64,000 nucleotides of DNA from Pseudoclavibacter helvolus (GTDB taxonomy: Bacteria > Actinomycetota > Actinomycetes > Actinomycetales > Microbacteriaceae): positions 806,001 through 870,000 of the forward strand of contig NZ_JACHWJ010000001.1 in the NCBI RefSeq assembly GCF_014191305.1. Direction: 5' to 3'. Below, one piece after another: positions 33,644 through 40,033 of the stretch. The stretch's first letter is position 1; each line of letters opens with the position of its first letter. Below the pieces are notes generated by a model that had not been told where the DNA came from, did no database searches, and was given only the letters and a program-made list of their open reading frames with translations. The translations under genes were made by a program, and so were the position numbers.

Positions 33644-35743
33644 CTACACGTCGATGTCTGCCCGCGCGACCTGCTCGGAGCCTTCGATGATGAACTCCTT
33701 GCGAGGCGCCACATCACTGCCCATCAGCAGGTCGAAGACGCGCTCCGCGTTGTGCGCGTCAGCGTTCGTGACTCGCCTCAGGAGGCGCGCACTCGGGTCC
33801 ATCGTCGTGTTCCAGAGCTGGTCCTCGTCCATCTCGCCGAGGCCCTTGTAGCGCTGGATGGGGTCCTGATAGCGCTTGCCCTGCTTCTCGAGCTTCGAGA
33901 GCAACGTGTGCAGCTCCTTCTCGGAATAGGTGTAGACCGTCTCGTTCGGCTTGCGGCCGGCGTGCATGATGACGACGCGGTGCAACGGCGGGACGGCCGC
34001 GTAGACCCGGCCAGCATCGAGCATCGGCCGCATGTAGCGGAAGAACAGCGTGAGCAGCAGGGTGCGGATGTGGGCGCCGTCGACGTCGGCGTCGCTCATC
34101 AGAATCACCTTGCCGTAGCGTGCCTGGCCGATGTCGAAGCTGCGACCGGAGCCAGCGCCCACCACCTGGATGATCGATGCGCACTCGGAGTTCGAGAGCA
34201 TGTCAGAGATAGACGCCTTCTGCACATTGAGGATCTTGCCGCGGATCGGGAGCAAGGCCTGGAACTCCGAGTTACGGGCGGGCTTGGCCGTGCCGAGCGC
34301 GGAGTCCCCCTCGACGATGAACAGCTCGCTCTGCGCGACGTCATTCGAGCGGCAGTCGACGAGCTTCGTCGGCAGCGATGAGCTCTCGAGCGCGTTCTTC
34401 CGACGCTGGGTCTCCTTGTGGGCGCGTGCGGAGAGGCGCGACTTCATTTCCTGCACGACCTTGTCGAGCAGGAGGTTCGACTCCGCCTTGTCCTGGCGCT
34501 TGGTCGACGTGAACTTCTCGGTAAGCCCGGCCGTCACTGCCTTCTGGACGATCGCGCGCGCTGCCGGCGTGCCGAGCACTTCCTTCGTCTGCCCCTCGAA
34601 CTGGGGCTCAGGGATGCGCACCGTCACGACGGCCGTGAGACCCGCCAGCACATCGTCCTTGTCGAGCTTGTCGTTGCCGACTTTGAGGCGCCTGGCGTTC
34701 TTCTCGACCTCTGCGCGGAAGAACCGGAGCATCCCCTGCTCGAAGCCCGCGAGGTGCGAGCCGCCCTTGGGCGTGGAGATGATGTTGACGAAGCTCTTCA
34801 CGTTCGTCTCGTAGCCCGTGCCCCAGCGCAGCGCGAGGTCGACGTGCATCGTCCGAGCGACTTCCTTCGTCACGAGCTGGAGGCCCTCGTCGTCCAGCAC
34901 GGGGATGGTCTCCGTGAACTCCCCGCTCCCCTCGATTCGCCACGTGTCGGTCGTGGGAGCATCCGGTGCCAGGAAATCGGCGAACTCGGTGATGCCTCCG
35001 TCGAAGCGGAACTGTTGCGTCGTGGGCTCGGCCGACTCGTCGCGCGCATCCTCGATGACCATCTCGAGCCCTGGCACGAGGAACGCGGTCTGCCTCGCGC
35101 GCTCGGCGAGGTCGTTCGTCTGGAAGCTCGCCTCCTTGATGAACACCTGAGGGTCGGCCCAGTAGCGCACGCGGGTACCCGTGACGCCACGCTTCGCCTT
35201 GCCGACGACGCGCAGCTCGCTCGTGCTGGTGAAGGGAACGAAGTTCGAAGTCGGGCTCGGCCCGCCGGCTCCGTCCTCGAAGATGCCCGGCTCGCCTCTG
35301 CGGAAGCTCATGGCGTACGTCTTGCCGCCGCGGTCGACCTCGACGTCGAGGCGGGCGGACAGCGCGTTGACGACGGATGCGCCAACGCCGTGCAGTCCAC
35401 CGGCGGACCCGTAGTTGCTCGCGCCGAACTTGCCGCCTGCATGCAGTTTCGTGAAGACGACCTCGACGCCGCTCAGCCCGGTCTTCGGCTCGATATCGAC
35501 CGGAACGCCTCGCCCATCATCATCGACGCTGACGGAGCCGTCGCTGTGCAGCTGTACGCGGATGCGAGACCCGTGACCAGCGAGCGCCTCGTCGACGGAG
35601 TTGTCGATAATCTCCCACAGGCAGTGCATGAGACCGCGGGAATCGGTCGACCCGATGTACATGCCGGGCCTCTTCCGAACCGCATCGAGCCCGTCGAGCA
35701 CCGAGAGGTGTCTGGCTGAGTATGCGTCTCCGGAATTCGCCAC
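33644..35743 (-). CDS. parE: DNA topoisomerase IV subunit B
   Basis: This 699-residue ATPase subunit has the GHKL ATP-binding blocks WEIIDNSVDEALAGHG, DDGRGVPV and GGLHGVGASVVNALS, then the transducer and TOPRIM domain with IVEGDSALG and LMSDADVDGAHIRTL. GTG 35743 is given as the start (MANSGDAYSARHLSVLDGL) but lacks a good ribosome site. An ATG at 35774 in another frame reads MMTQKKDVDLGGEF, which looks like a plausible N-terminus. Either that is chance or a one-base shift near 35740 separates it from the body. Confidence 0.92.
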   Translation of the reverse strand: MANSGDAYSARHLSVLDGLDAVRKRPGMYIGSTDSRGLMHCLWEIIDNSVDEALAGHGSRIRVQLHSDGSVSVDDDGRGVPVDIEPKTGLSGVEVVFTKLHAGGKFGASNYGSAGGLHGVGASVVNALSARLDVEVDRGGKTYAMSFRRGEPGIFEDGAGGPSPTSNFVPFTSTSELRVVGKAKRGVTGTRVRYWADPQVFIKEASFQTNDLAERARQTAFLVPGLEMVIEDARDESAEPTTQQFRFDGGITEFADFLAPDAPTTDTWRIEGSGEFTETIPVLDDEGLQLVTKEVARTMHVDLALRWGTGYETNVKSFVNIISTPKGGSHLAGFEQGMLRFFRAEVEKNARRLKVGNDKLDKDDVLAGLTAVVTVRIPEPQFEGQTKEVLGTPAARAIVQKAVTAGLTEKFTSTKRQDKAESNLLLDKVVQEMKSRLSARAHKETQRRKNALESSSLPTKLVDCRSNDVAQSELFIVEGDSALGTAKPARNSEFQALLPIRGKILNVQKASISDMLSNSECASIIQVVGAGSGRSFDIGQARYGKVILMSDADVDGAHIRTLLLTLFFRYMRPMLDAGRVYAAVPPLHRVVIMHAGRKPNETVYTYSEKELHTLLSKLEKQGKRYQDPIQRYKGLGEMDEDQLWNTTMDPSARLLRRVTNADAHNAERVFDLLMGSDVAPRKEFIIEGSEQVARADIDV

Positions 35744-35946
35744 CGAGGTCCACGTCCTTCTTCTGCGTCATCATGCGTTCGATCTCGGCCGAACCGCAGG
35801 GCAGCGGCAGGCCACCTTAGAGCGTAGACCGGATGCGGAGAATCGGGCGCCTCCCACACCAGGACGGCCGCACGCGCGCCTCAGCCGAGCCCGGAACCGC
35901 CGGTGCTAGCCTGACCACGCCCAGCGACGACCAGAGAGGGCACAAC

Positions 35947-36645
35947 GTGCAGACTCCCGAGCCGGTGCGCAGACGCATCCACATCGACCTTCGTGCGATC
36001 CGCGAGAACTCGACCCGTCTTCTGGGATCAGAGACCGCCAGCTACGCCGACCTTCGCGCCGATGCCTACGGCCACGGCGCGCTCCGAGTGGCCGATGCTC
36101 TCGACGTCGAAGGGTACGAGGGGTTCATCGTCTCTCCCGACCTGGACCGCTCGTCCTTATCGCAGTTGAACACCCCGCTGCTCGAGGCCGACGTCGTCAA
36201 TTCGGACAGAATCACGGGTGGCTCGCTCTACGGGCTCACCGACCGCGCCTATCGGCCCGCGATGCGCGTCAGCGCGGAGGTCCTCGCAGTGAAGGACGTC
36301 GGAGCTGGCGAGGGCGTCTCCTATGGCTACAGCTATGTGACGACGCAGCAGACCCAGCTCGCGCTTGTTGGCGTCGGCTACGCGCACGGCGTCGTCCGGC
36401 GCGCATCGAACACCGCCTCTGTCCTCATCGGCGGGGAGACGCGCACTATCGTGGGCGCGATCTCCATGGACCAGTTCTCAGTCGACCTGCTCGGCGCCGA
36501 GGTTGCCCCCGGTGACCTGGCCATCTTGTTCGGGGATCCGGCGCTCGGCGAGCCGAGCATCCTCGACTGGCAGCGCGCAACGGGTCTGCGAGCCGCAGCG
36601 ATCGCAAGCCGGATGAGTCCGCGATTCGAACGGAGCTACACATGA
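35947..36645 (+). CDS. truncated alanine racemase homologue, C-terminal domain intact
   Basis: This 232-residue protein is a shortened paralogue of fold-type III alanine racemases. Residues 11-97 are a remnant barrel: the PLP motif reads DLRADAYGHG, with Arg37 where the PLP lysine belongs, and strands beta3-beta7 are missing. Residues 103-232 keep a full-length C-terminal beta-domain: GVSYGYSYVT, the catalytic tyrosine Tyr145 in GVGYAHG, and ISMDQF (Met174-Asp175-Gln176). The start is GTG 35947 with AGAGGG seven bases upstream. Its stop overlaps the next gene's ATG (ATGA). Alone it cannot bind PLP in the known way; with the next protein it could complete one composite active site (inference). 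Confidence 0.9.
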   Translation: MQTPEPVRRRIHIDLRAIRENSTRLLGSETASYADLRADAYGHGALRVADALDVEGYEGFIVSPDLDRSSLSQLNTPLLEADVVNSDRITGGSLYGLTDRAYRPAMRVSAEVLAVKDVGAGEGVSYGYSYVTTQQTQLALVGVGYAHGVVRRASNTASVLIGGETRTIVGAISMDQFSVDLLGAEVAPGDLAILFGDPALGEPSILDWQRATGLRAAAIASRMSPRFERSYT

Positions 36646-37694
36646 GCCGCGCAACCGCGCACGTCGATCTTGGGGCCATCAGCCACAACATCCAGGCGCT
36701 TGGTGCCCTCGCGCCGCGGTCGCAGTTCATGCTCGCCGTAAAGTCGAATGCCTATGGCCACGGCCTCCACGAAGTCGTGCGCACGGGGCTGGACGCTGGA
36801 GTGTCCTCCTTCGGCGTCCTCGAATCGACGGCGGGGATCGAGCTTCGCAAAGCTGGCGTCGACGTGCCGCTCTTCGCCTGGATGCACGGGCAGGACACCG
36901 ATTTCGCGGCGGCTGCCGAGGAACGCATCGACCTTGGCGTGCAGACCTTCTGGCAGCTCGAAGCGATCGCCGCGAGTGGCGCGCGTGTTGTGCCGCGCGT
37001 GCACCTCAAGATCGACACCGGCCTGCACCGCGGCGGTGCCGACCAGCCTCGCTGGGCGGAGTTCGTGACCGAGGCGCTGCGGTTGCAGGCGCTCGGCAGG
37101 CTCGAGGTCGTGGCCGCCTGGAGCCACCTGTCCGACACCTCGCACAGCGCCGACCTCGAATCGACCGCTCTGTTCGGCGCTGCGGTGGAAGAGGCTAAGG
37201 CGCTTGGCGCCGAGTTCGAGCTGCTGCATCTCGGCGCGAGTGCCGCCGTGATCGACCTCCCCGAGGCGCACTTCGACCTCGTGCGGGTGGGCATTGCGGC
37301 CTACGGCATCTCGCCGTTCGGCGATCGGAGCGCCGCCGATCTCGGGCTACGGCCGGCGATGCGACTGAGCGCCCCGGTCTTGGATGCACGCCACGGGCTG
37401 GCCAGCATTGCGGTCGGCTACGGCGACGGAATTCAGTCAGACCCTGACGCAGGCGCCTATGTCATCATCGACGGCTTCGTGGCGCCCGTCATCGAGGTCG
37501 GAGTCGACGAGACCGTCGTCGCGCTCCCCGAGAGCGCTGGGCAGGTGGGTGCCGACAGTGTGTGCATCGTGTTCGGCGATGGCGCACACGGCGAAGCAAC
37601 GGCTGAGCAGTGGGCCGTCTGGGGTGAGACGGTCGGCGACGAGATCGTGACGGGGCTCACCGGCCGTGTGCGCCGGGACTTCTCCGGCGCCTGA
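36642..37694 (+). CDS. alr: alanine racemase-like protein, barrel intact, C-terminal domain reduced
   Basis: This 350-residue protein keeps the PLP barrel: Lys34 in AVKSNAYGHG, Arg130 in DTGLHRGG, His162 in WSHLSD and Arg215 in LVRVGIAAYG. The C-terminal domain is degenerate: about 19 residues including the VSYG segment are missing between RPAMRLSAPVL and VGYGDG, and GVDE (287-290) stands where MDQ is expected. Tyr260 in GYGDG remains. Alanine racemases work as head-to-tail dimers, each site using the barrel of one chain and the C-terminal domain of the other. The losses here complement those of the overlapping upstream gene. The product should be a D-amino acid for peptidoglycan; the substrate is open. 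Confidence 0.9.
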   Translation: MSRATAHVDLGAISHNIQALGALAPRSQFMLAVKSNAYGHGLHEVVRTGLDAGVSSFGVLESTAGIELRKAGVDVPLFAWMHGQDTDFAAAAEERIDLGVQTFWQLEAIAASGARVVPRVHLKIDTGLHRGGADQPRWAEFVTEALRLQALGRLEVVAAWSHLSDTSHSADLESTALFGAAVEEAKALGAEFELLHLGASAAVIDLPEAHFDLVRVGIAAYGISPFGDRSAADLGLRPAMRLSAPVLDARHGLASIAVGYGDGIQSDPDAGAYVIIDGFVAPVIEVGVDETVVALPESAGQVGADSVCIVFGDGAHGEATAEQWAVWGETVGDEIVTGLTGRVRRDFSGA

Positions 37695-37768: not shown

Positions 37769-38527
37769 TCAGGACGTCGGTGCGGACACGCCGATCCGCC
37801 GCATGAGCGCGAGCCGCGCGTTCTGCGACCAAAGATCGAGGCGTGCGAGTTCCTCTCCCCCGTCGCCGAGGCTGCGGTCGGCGTCGCGGCGGTGCACCGC
37901 CTGCTCGAGGAGCTGATCCGCCAGGGAGGGGTTCAGGGCGAGGATCGGGCCGTGGAGGTGCGTACCGATGGCCGAGAGCTGGCGGATTCCTTCTGCGCCC
38001 GCGTTCTCAGCTGCAGCTCCGCCGTTGCCGAACCCTCGGACGACCTCGCCGAGGGCTTCCGCGGCTGCGTCAAGCGTCGTCACCGCGTTGTGGTTGGCAA
38101 ACCCGGCGAGAAGACCGCCTTCGGTGCGCACGACCGTCTCGGCGACGCTCTGTGACGGCTCCCGGACGGCGGTGGAGGCGAACACTCCGAGACCGTCCAG
38201 CTCTCCGTCGTCGTGCGTGATGCTGGAGCCGAGCAGCTCCCAGCCACCGCCGATCGCGAGAAGGGGCATGCCGGCCGCCACAAGTTCGCGGAGCTGCGCT
38301 GCGTGCCGCAACGCGTCAGCCTGGACCGTCTGCACGGCGGCGAGCGGCCCCGAACCGACGTGGAGGAGATCGACGTCATCCGGCAGCGCGGTGGCACCAC
38401 GGCCGACGTTGACTACCTCGACCTCGAAGCCGCGGGCTCTCGCACGCTTGGCGAGGACCGTCACGTTGCCAACGTCGCCGTTGATACCGAGCTCGACCGG
38501 GTAGAGGTGCGCGATACGCAACTTCAT
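37769..38527 (-). CDS. GatD-like class I glutamine amidotransferase lacking the catalytic cysteine
   Basis: A 252-residue homologue of GatD, the glutaminase partner of MurT. The N-terminus (RIAHLYPVELGINGDVGNV) and GTHLHGPILALNP with the catalytic-type histidine match the family. The nucleophile motif, ICGGYQ in canonical GatD, here reads AIGGGWELLG: Gly93 replaces cysteine. The VGFENHGGRT block is altered to AGFANHNAVTT. It therefore should not hydrolyse glutamine. The ATG overlaps the murT stop (ATGA), so the two are made together, and the fold probably persists as a structural or substrate-channelling subunit. Confidence 0.88.
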   Translation of the reverse strand: MKLRIAHLYPVELGINGDVGNVTVLAKRARARGFEVEVVNVGRGATALPDDVDLLHVGSGPLAAVQTVQADALRHAAQLRELVAAGMPLLAIGGGWELLGSSITHDDGELDGLGVFASTAVREPSQSVAETVVRTEGGLLAGFANHNAVTTLDAAAEALGEVVRGFGNGGAAAENAGAEGIRQLSAIGTHLHGPILALNPSLADQLLEQAVHRRDADRSLGDGGEELARLDLWSQNARLALMRRIGVSAPTS

Positions 38528-39807
38528 GAGTTGACCTTCCCCTCGATGCCCGATTGCCCGAGTCGGCGGCGGATAGACATCATCTGCTCGTAGTTCACGA
38601 TCATCGTCTTCATTCCTCGGCTGGGCTTGGGCAGTGCGAGGAACTTATCGAGCGCCTCACCGAGGCTCGGCTCCACGAGCCCGACCGGGATGTCGCCGTA
38701 GCCGAGCCTCGCTGCGATCTGCCATGCCTTTGTGCCGGAGACCACGTCGACGTGGTCCAGTCGGCTCAGGTCGGCCCCGAAGATCCACGACGGATCGGGC
38801 GTGCCCTCGTCGACTGAGACGAAGACCTGCTCTGGTGCTTCTTCGAGCGCATCCAGGTTCATCTGGAGACTCGGCGGGTTCTTCATCATGATGATCTCGA
38901 TGTCTTCGCCACGCACGCTCATGACCTCGCCGCGACCGTAGACGGTCTGGGACTCGCCGAGTGCCTCAGCGACGAGGGCTGGCACAAAGGAGTCACCGAG
39001 GATGCGCTGCGCGGTCGCCGCCGCACCTGCGGCGTCGAGTGCGTAGTGAAGGCCGCGAGCAGGAAGCTTGATGGCAAGCTCTTCGTCGCCGATGCGGAGG
39101 GTCGCGTCACGCCCAGAGAGCGCGACGACCTGTACAGCTCGATCACCAGCTGCCACCTCGACGCTCGCGGCCGAGATGTCATCGAAGTTCGAGAGACCGT
39201 TCGGGGACTGCTCGATGAGCTCGGGAGCGACTCCGAACCACGTGACCGGAGCTTCGAGCGACAGCGGCAGGCTCCGGAGCGACGCGTCGTCGGCGTTGAG
39301 CACGCTGAAGTCGCCGCACGCCGCCGCGATCGTGCGGAGGAACTCCGTCACCCTGGACGGGTCGTAGAAGCGGTTGAGCTGGTCGACCTGCACGTTGAGC
39401 AGGAGCACGCCGCGCGGGTGCAGGTGCCCGAGGAGACGAGGACCGTAGGCCTCGTCGACTTCCAGCACCGCGATGTCAGCGCGAAGGTTGCCGTTGACGT
39501 CAACGTCGGGGAGCATCGAAGAGGCAATGCCCTGCGGCAGGTTGCCACCGGAGGAGTTCGTGAAGACTCGCAGTCCGTGGCGACGGAGCATCCTCGTGAG
39601 GAAGTGGGTGGTGGTCGACTTGCCGTTGGACCCAGACACAAAGATGACGCCGAGCGGAAGCTTCGCCACTGCCGTCTCGAGGAAGTCCGGGGAGATGGCG
39701 AGTGCCACCCTGCCTGGCACAGCGGAGCCACCGCCGCGGAGGCGCATGGCTCCTCGCGCGCTCCGTCCGAGACCGACGGCGATCATTCGCCGCAGCTTGC
39801 CACCCAT
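38524..39807 (-). CDS. murT: MurT-like Mur ligase lacking the zinc ribbon
   Basis: This 427-residue Mur ligase-fold protein activates a carboxyl group with ATP. The P-loop is SGSNGKSTTT at about 58-67, followed by NSSGGNLPQGI and AVLEVDEAYGP, with a C-terminal DUF1727-like domain. Canonical MurT carries a four-cysteine zinc ribbon in the central domain; no cysteine occurs in that part here (after FSVLNADD). In the C-terminal domain GTKAWQIAARLGYG has Gln near where MurT supplies an Asp to the GatD triad (alignment by eye). ATG 39807 has GGGAG five bases upstream. In known systems MurT-GatD amidates D-Glu2 of lipid II. Confidence 0.88.
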   Translation of the reverse strand: MGGKLRRMIAVGLGRSARGAMRLRGGGSAVPGRVALAISPDFLETAVAKLPLGVIFVSGSNGKSTTTHFLTRMLRRHGLRVFTNSSGGNLPQGIASSMLPDVDVNGNLRADIAVLEVDEAYGPRLLGHLHPRGVLLLNVQVDQLNRFYDPSRVTEFLRTIAAACGDFSVLNADDASLRSLPLSLEAPVTWFGVAPELIEQSPNGLSNFDDISAASVEVAAGDRAVQVVALSGRDATLRIGDEELAIKLPARGLHYALDAAGAAATAQRILGDSFVPALVAEALGESQTVYGRGEVMSVRGEDIEIIMMKNPPSLQMNLDALEEAPEQVFVSVDEGTPDPSWIFGADLSRLDHVDVVSGTKAWQIAARLGYGDIPVGLVEPSLGEALDKFLALPKPSRGMKTMIVNYEQMMSIRRRLGQSGIEGKVNS

Positions 39808-40033
39808 GCACACTCCCGTTCCCGCGCAGTGCCTGCGCATCTGTCACAACGGCGAGAAACCTCGCCTCGCTGACCGCCGCAAGTATCTCACGGGCCCGTG
39901 TCGCGGCCACGGACCTCACGCGGCGGAGCCACTGCTACGCGCAGGGCGAACCTGACCCCTCAAATCACCCGGGATTCCGGCGCCCGTGCTCTAATTGTCG
40001 TGATCGCAAGATCACCGAAGCTTTGGAGGCATC

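Follow-up and report, generated by a model that had tools for sequence, protein, structure and literature searches.

Alanine racemase (Alr) is a textbook homodimer and drug target that makes D-alanine for the cell wall. Other racemases of the Alr superfamily, namely the broad-specificity enzyme BsrV, the lysine racemase Lyr and the serine racemase VanT, are to our knowledge known only with both halves of the active site in each chain. Serine palmitoyltransferase (LCB1/LCB2), a PLP enzyme of fold-type I, joins two paralogues, one of them without the PLP lysine, in a heterodimer; we know of no mirror-image forms or fusions of this enzyme of the kind described below. Each active site of Alr takes its lysine from one monomer and its tyrosine from the other, and dimerisation is described as essential (PMC3146814). 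The prozymes of trypanosomatids represent a further type of unequal partnership: an impaired deoxyhypusine synthase is reported to be activated by a dead paralogue (DHSc/DHSp; PMC3663545), and AdoMetDC is reported to need a prozyme, a paralogue without the catalytic residue (PMC5201418). No split, heterodimeric or tandem-fused Alr was found among the matches listed in a literature search whose scope excluded subscription journals and preprints.

The two proteins described here, A and B, are encoded by adjacent genes of Pseudoclavibacter helvolus. In their models they have the same fold as ordinary Alr (EC 5.1.1.1; PF01168 + PF00842; Streptomyces lavendulae 1vfh, Geobacillus stearothermophilus 1sft) and as BsrV, Lyr and VanT. 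The catalytic residues are also the same, but here they are shared between two chains, the barrel of one and the tail of the other. Whereas ordinary Alr proteins are homodimers with two equal sites, A and B have complementary defects that would leave one site, whether they are encoded by separate genes or joined in a fused chain. A paralogue without the lysine is common to A/B and LCB1/LCB2, although the PLP fold and the reaction differ in the latter. Of the features of prozyme-type systems, co-occurrence of the partners and loss of the lysine (in A) are both seen. However, a prozyme is a dead activator, while A and B each carry residues lost by the other, and the loss runs in both directions.

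The genes lie in a 64,000-nucleotide stretch of the genome (contig NZ_JACHWJ010000001.1, positions 806,001 to 870,000), referred to below as the window. Subunit A (35947-36645, plus strand; 232 aa, GTG start) is the putative tail donor, with most of its barrel deleted and its C-terminal domain intact. An upstream in-frame ATG for A is also open at 35833. Subunit B (36642-37694, plus strand; 350 aa) is the putative barrel donor, with a whole barrel that includes the PLP lysine and with the catalytic-tyrosine loop missing. The stop codon of A and the start codon of B overlap in the sequence ATGA (36642-36645, plus strand), which makes translational coupling of the two genes likely. Of 77 sequence-unique A reading frames examined (some from A genes 3' of B), 47 end in ATGA and 26 in GTGA. 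The pair is flanked on the minus strand by genes that also neighbour A and B elsewhere: a parE-type gene (33644-35743) on one side and gatD-murT (37769-39840) on the other. A sigma-70 gene lies farther out. A gene finder calling two alanine racemases here, or one alanine racemase and a fragment, would hide what may be a single enzyme.

A matches the whole of the Pfam domain Ala_racemase_C (PF00842; 107.7 bits, positions 1-127), whereas its match to Ala_racemase_N (PF01168) covers positions 1-54 only and is below the cut-off. B matches the whole of Ala_racemase_N (166.4 bits) and Ala_racemase_C only from position 29. Neither A nor B has both domains whole in one chain; this is true only of the pair, or of a fused chain, taken as a whole. 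The barrel set (PLP lysine, Arg136, His166 and Arg219) is present in B and absent from A. In B these residues are Lys34 (codon 36741-36743, plus strand; invariant in 25/25 B proteins), Arg130, His162 and Arg215, all of which are invariant in the 25 aligned B proteins. The lysine position of A is occupied by Arg37 (codon 36055-36057, plus strand; Arg in 8/8 aligned A proteins). A keeps Tyr126 (codon 36322-36324, plus strand; invariant in 33/33 A proteins) and Met174-Asp175-Gln176 (MDQ), while the catalytic tyrosine and MDQ are both absent from B. Tyr126 aligns with the VSYG tyrosine of S. lavendulae Alr (1vfh), which we take to be the catalytic tyrosine (Tyr270 in S. lavendulae Alr, Tyr265 in Geobacillus numbering). 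When B is aligned to 1vfh, a gap falls over VSYGHHY. Since neither protein carries the full catalytic set, neither homodimer would be expected to have a complete site.

The original prediction, made from the window sequence, had described both reading frames with their four-base overlap, an A protein with Arg37 at the lysine position, little barrel and an intact tail, and a B protein with the four barrel residues and a damaged C-terminal domain. All of this is confirmed by the sequence and the alignments above. It had also named Tyr145 as the key tyrosine of A, and this part does not hold: the 1vfh alignment gives Tyr126. Tyr145 is the tyrosine of GYADG, and it cannot tell A from B because B keeps its counterpart in VGYGDG.

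Single-chain AlphaFold2 models were built for A from a 33-row alignment (pLDDT 94.5, pTM 0.90) and for B from a 25-row alignment (pLDDT 91.9, pTM 0.89). The A model is similar to Alr 1vft (228/232 residues align at 2.1 A, Z 24.6), and the B model to Alr 1vfh (348/350 residues align at 1.7 A, Z 45.0). Because 228 of its 232 residues lie on the Alr fold, A is predicted to be an Alr with an internal deletion, folded barrel remnant included. In the A model the Tyr126 loop is flanked by strands 106-118 and 136-141. In the B model a turn of two residues (37392-37397, plus strand) connects the matching strands (240-250 and 253-256), and in both the 1vfh alignment and the model this turn replaces the catalytic-tyrosine loop of other Alr proteins. 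Both genes are under purifying selection. In comparisons of the window genes with three Pseudoclavibacter strains using a Nei-Gojobori script, dN/dS is 0.087, 0.075 and 0.094 over the whole of A; 0.15, 0.11 and 0.10 when only its barrel remnant is considered; and 0.082, 0.112 and 0.130 over B.

Because the lysine and the tyrosine of an Alr site come from different monomers, A and B would by analogy fit the roles of tail donor and barrel donor. Together they very probably constitute one Alr-type enzyme with a single working site, derived from a tandem alr1-alr2 pair by a loss of one site that could go either way. A and B would assemble head to tail like ordinary Alr dimers. The working two-base site would be formed by the B barrel (Lys34 with PLP, Arg130, His162 and Arg215) and the A tail (Tyr126, Met174 and Asp175). 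The opposite site, composed of the A barrel remnant and the shortened B tail, would be dead and would have a structural role. Physical assembly of A with B, catalysis by the complex and alanine as its substrate are predictions of this model. The putative heterodimer is strongly supported by the comparative sequence data presented below.

Alr homologues were classified by means of a residue table for which an HMM of 40 conventional Alr proteins served as the reference, and the final recount covered all loci read, as sequence-unique systems. Class A proteins have no Lys39 and have Tyr265, while class B proteins have Lys39 and no Tyr265 (Geobacillus numbering). There are 142 sequence-unique complementary systems: 104 with A then B, nine with B then A, 25 BA fusions and four AB fusions (L115, from the genus of the window genome, L229, L285 and L299). 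In the first set, Lys39 and Arg136 are present in 103/103 B proteins and Tyr265 in 0/103; as the classes were set by residues, the independent result is that the partners are always adjacent and complementary. The residue at the lysine position of the 113 separate A proteins is Arg in 82, Thr in 10, Ala in 6, Ser in 6, Gly in 3, Asp in 1 and Pro in 1, the remaining 4 being unaligned. No A was found without B among the loci read, and the three B genes without A (L064, L277 and L289) are all at contig ends. As an independent test of pairing, 24 B-length loci were newly chosen among the matches listed in a search with the B profile only. Of these, 20 have an A gene followed by B, including two repeats of earlier loci; AB fusions account for two, and the remaining two are truncated at a contig end. 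The window A gene is 88-92% identical to A of four Pseudoclavibacter strains, and A/B systems are also found in Leifsonia, Microbacterium, Diaminobutyricibacter, Homoserinibacter, Pseudolysinimonas, Salinibacterium, Lacisediminihabitans and Gulosibacter. A frameshift artefact was considered and rejected, as the same split is found in many assemblies. The complementary losses are real and general in Microbacteriaceae.

An order-wide search for A covered 297 genomes, 274 of them outside Microbacteriaceae (19 families); among the matches listed, A-type proteins come from Microbacteriaceae only. The listed matches from outside this family that start before profile position 70 (G409, G431, G511, G452 and G674) are ordinary alr genes, that of G409 being cut at the contig start. 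Among 79 pair loci of at least 8 kb (some counted twice), the neighbours include a homologue of the window parE gene at 77, gatD and murT at 63, sigA at 63 and none of these at 1. Given the frequency of the parE-type gene and of gatD/murT, the chromosomal place of the pair is considered to be old. At L168, A-B lies 3' of murT-gatD and shares their strand; compared with the window the arrangement is inverted, and the pair perhaps forms a single operon with these lipid II amidation genes. At L281 (G225:C9), a second A/B-type pair apparently follows the first on the same contig; this locus was partly read and the second pair was left out of the counts.

A search of the window genome with the Alr barrel family identified five places. 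The strongest besides the window pair is a gene encoding a 623-aa protein (L001:1480-3351), located 3' of a glmS-type SIS-domain gene, a place common to Alr and the fused form. The first half of this protein has a barrel with all of its residues and is missing the catalytic-tyrosine loop. In the second half, Ser takes the place of the lysine, most of the barrel is missing and the VSYG...MDQ tail is intact. Judged by these residues, the protein is a B-A fusion with the same complementary losses as the window pair. A search with the C-terminal family identified only four half-domains, all in the window pair and the 623-aa fusion, and found no complete Alr in the window genome (97.2% complete). 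Two weaker barrel-family matches (L003 and L004) have no Alr C-terminal domain and are probably other fold-type III enzymes.

According to the original prediction, a second complete alr elsewhere in the genome, with the pair itself unexpressed, would speak against a heterodimer. A second gene is indeed present, but it is not complete, and the objection was rejected since the 623-aa gene is itself B-A. The complementary losses are not due to chance, given their occurrence in 142 sequence-unique systems and the low dN/dS values. The expected co-occurrence of A and B is likewise seen, at 22 of the 24 loci chosen with the B profile as well as wherever A was read. The proposed heterodimer has hence survived comparative tests that include the presence of A beside B and the search for a second complete alr. 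The analysis also goes beyond what had been predicted: there are natural fusions in both orders and genomes with such a pair as the only Alr, and mirror-image forms are found together in one genome, with intermediates in its relatives.

The supply of D-alanine was checked in 37 genomes of five genus groups (g1, g16, g21, g50 and g77). The D-Ala-D-Ala ligase gene ddl is present in 37/37. When the C-terminal matches were read with the residue tables, no complete Alr was identified in 29/37; among these 29, G389 has a completeness of only 83%. Complete Alr proteins are encoded by the other eight, each of which was read: four have an extra divergent protein (G073, G188, G274 and G339), three an extra complete one (G352, G332 and G384) and one a tandem pair (G369). 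D-amino-acid transaminase as a source of D-alanine was rejected, as no match exceeds the TIGR01121 cut-off in any of the 37 genomes; weaker matches occur in 33/37, the strongest being in G015 (64.7 bits, cut-off 277.45). We infer that the A/B forms make D-alanine, because genomes with ddl need it and have no other Alr. In G015, the split pair is the only Alr, ddl is present and the pair has parE-, gatD- and murT-like neighbours as in the window. Eight genomes of other genera (G226, G028, G066, G041, G113, G006, G143 and G281) have a complete alr and a split pair, so the pair is not always the sole source. In the window genome, the 623-aa fusion alone could supply D-alanine, and the pair could therefore have another substrate or be dispensable. 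The extra complete alr at L232 (G332:C1:1722000-1728000) and L234 (G384:C11:222500-228500) adjoins an extra D-Ala-D-Ala ligase homologue, the two possibly forming a module of their own for the cell wall or for resistance. Four Pseudoclavibacter-group genomes (L051, L235, L236 and L269) encode a complete but divergent Alr relative in which MNC replaces MDQ; it was not found in the window genome.

Several genera have two complete alr genes in tandem, and in one such pair (L228) the genes overlap by 4 bases. In the barrel tree, split B proteins group with alr2, while fused B and g77 B proteins group with alr1 and single alr (100/99). Gene order matches this division: B proteins of the alr2 kind have A upstream, and those of the alr1 kind have A downstream. 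Split B proteins are not one group within the alr2 clade, so there were at least two losses and probably more. Among the g77 genomes, both mirror forms occur in seven, each form as separate genes (all fourteen loci were read). The eighth (G369) retains a complete tandem pair, and in a tree of 84 barrels the alr1 of this pair is the sister of g77 B (99/88).

Nine systems contain an A with a dead barrel (L282, L284, L287, L290, L293, L294, L296 and the AB fusions L285 and L299). These A proteins keep all or most of the barrel, have Ser, Thr, Gly or Asp in place of the lysine, have lost Arg136 and His166 where aligned and retain the tyrosine. In a tree of 83/99 rows (extra Alr and L229 dropped, lysine column masked), the dead A barrels and the partly aligned L283 join three alr1 (99/95), with long branches and a bootstrap that had not settled. 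Their B partners fall in the alr2 clade (100/99), beside alr2 of the same tandem genera. In these systems, therefore, A derives from the first gene and B from the second, and loss of the lysine preceded loss of the barrel. In this tree the dead-barrel pairs are closest to the tandem complete pairs at L086, L088 and L089. In the latter, MDQ is replaced by MNA in alr1 and VSYG by VSYD in alr2, the two complete copies being already unequal.

The proposed origin of the A/B systems is as follows. A tandem-duplicated homodimer would have become a heterodimer with two sites, barrel1+tail2 and barrel2+tail1, either of which could be lost singly. In the line leading to the window locus, the tandem alr1-alr2 would have lost one site such that B comes from alr2, with A upstream. 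The mirror-image loss, in which B comes from alr1 with A downstream, would have been followed by fusion and would have given the other locus of the window genome. The window cell would carry one product of each: the barrel2+tail1 site encoded by two genes, and the barrel1+tail2 site in a single fused chain. The steps of this series are all represented by extant forms, which would run from a single alr through the tandem complete pair and the pair with a full-length dead first barrel to the pair in which the dead barrel is mostly deleted, the fused chain, and a polypeptide composed of a barrel, a broken tail, a bare tail and TsaE. We consider this sequence of events probable, though less firmly established than the single-site enzyme itself.

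Other explanations of the pair and its history have to be weighed against this model. The same heterodimer might act on a substrate other than alanine, the pair making a D-diamino or other D-amino acid for the cross-bridge and the fused or conventional Alr making D-alanine. D-diamino acids are found in the peptidoglycan cross-bridge of Microbacteriaceae; the window pair lies between a parE-type gene and gatD-murT, the latter genes being present at most pair loci (63/79), and a complete alr accompanies the pair in the eight genomes listed above. G015, however, has ddl and, apart from a pair at this chromosomal position, no other Alr, so that its pair should serve D-alanine synthesis. A different substrate, which would not conflict with the architecture proposed above for the enzyme, is accordingly viewed as possible but rather doubtful. 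B might instead form a homodimer that functions by itself with a changed chemistry, such as that of an aldolase-like PLP enzyme, with A as a regulator or relic. The B model does appear to be a whole Alr fold without the catalytic tyrosine, and a Tyr265Ala variant of Geobacillus Alr is described as having largely reduced racemisation and a newly created aldolase activity (PMC6411801). Nevertheless, A is under purifying selection, is found beside B wherever the contig reaches, has repeatedly been fused to B and keeps exactly the residues that are missing from B, and 29/37 genomes would be left without an alanine racemase; a solitary role for B is thus very unlikely. Decay of a duplicate into two pseudogenes, with the fused alr doing the work, would account for the absence from A and B of parts needed by an ordinary Alr. 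It is hardly credible for genes that have dN/dS values of about 0.1 (0.10-0.15 for the A barrel remnant) and high-confidence predicted folds, whose pairing and chromosomal place are kept across many genera and which are the only Alr of G015.

With respect to ancestry, all A/B systems might be derived from a single asymmetric pair, the different gene orders having arisen by rearrangement. The A tails are consistent with this. The short tails of window A and of fused A are placed by neither the C-terminal-domain tree (repeat loci, extra Alr L051/L052 and three cut B omitted) nor the A tree (108/129 rows, without L097, four nearly identical Leifsonia rows and 16 unselected single alr), and the origin proposed for them above is taken from gene order. 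In the C-terminal-domain tree, the majority of fused A tails group on long branches with a subset of the split A tails (support 89-93), and the A barrel remnants look alike in both kinds. The barrels of B, however, argue against a single origin. A single clade of all B is rejected (dlnL 155.7, AU p 3.5e-8) in a test on 63/127 barrels, in which the group was the residue class and which was run after an earlier tree had been seen. Fused and g77 B proteins belong with alr1 and single alr while split B proteins belong with alr2, and the sister of g77 B is a complete alr1 (G369). One origin for all systems is for these reasons quite unlikely, and loss in both directions from tandem duplicates is the preferred explanation.

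Members of Microbacteriaceae appear to depend on an asymmetric, two-part Alr. Loss in both directions would provide a natural series, with intermediates, from homodimer to heterodimer to single chain, in which the mirror-image outcome would serve as an internal replicate. The A/B system would also allow a clean test of half-of-sites function.

Further fusion of the system has occurred in g50, where two genomes have B followed by an A-TsaE gene and seven have a B-A-TsaE chain. The TsaE domain is recognized by Pfam in 4/7 of the chains and in 1/2 of the A-TsaE genes. Fusions to TsaE, a tRNA t6A enzyme, are found at the g50 loci L041, L042, L240, L241 and L231, and a chain of a complete alr2 and TsaE is encoded at L083 (g35).
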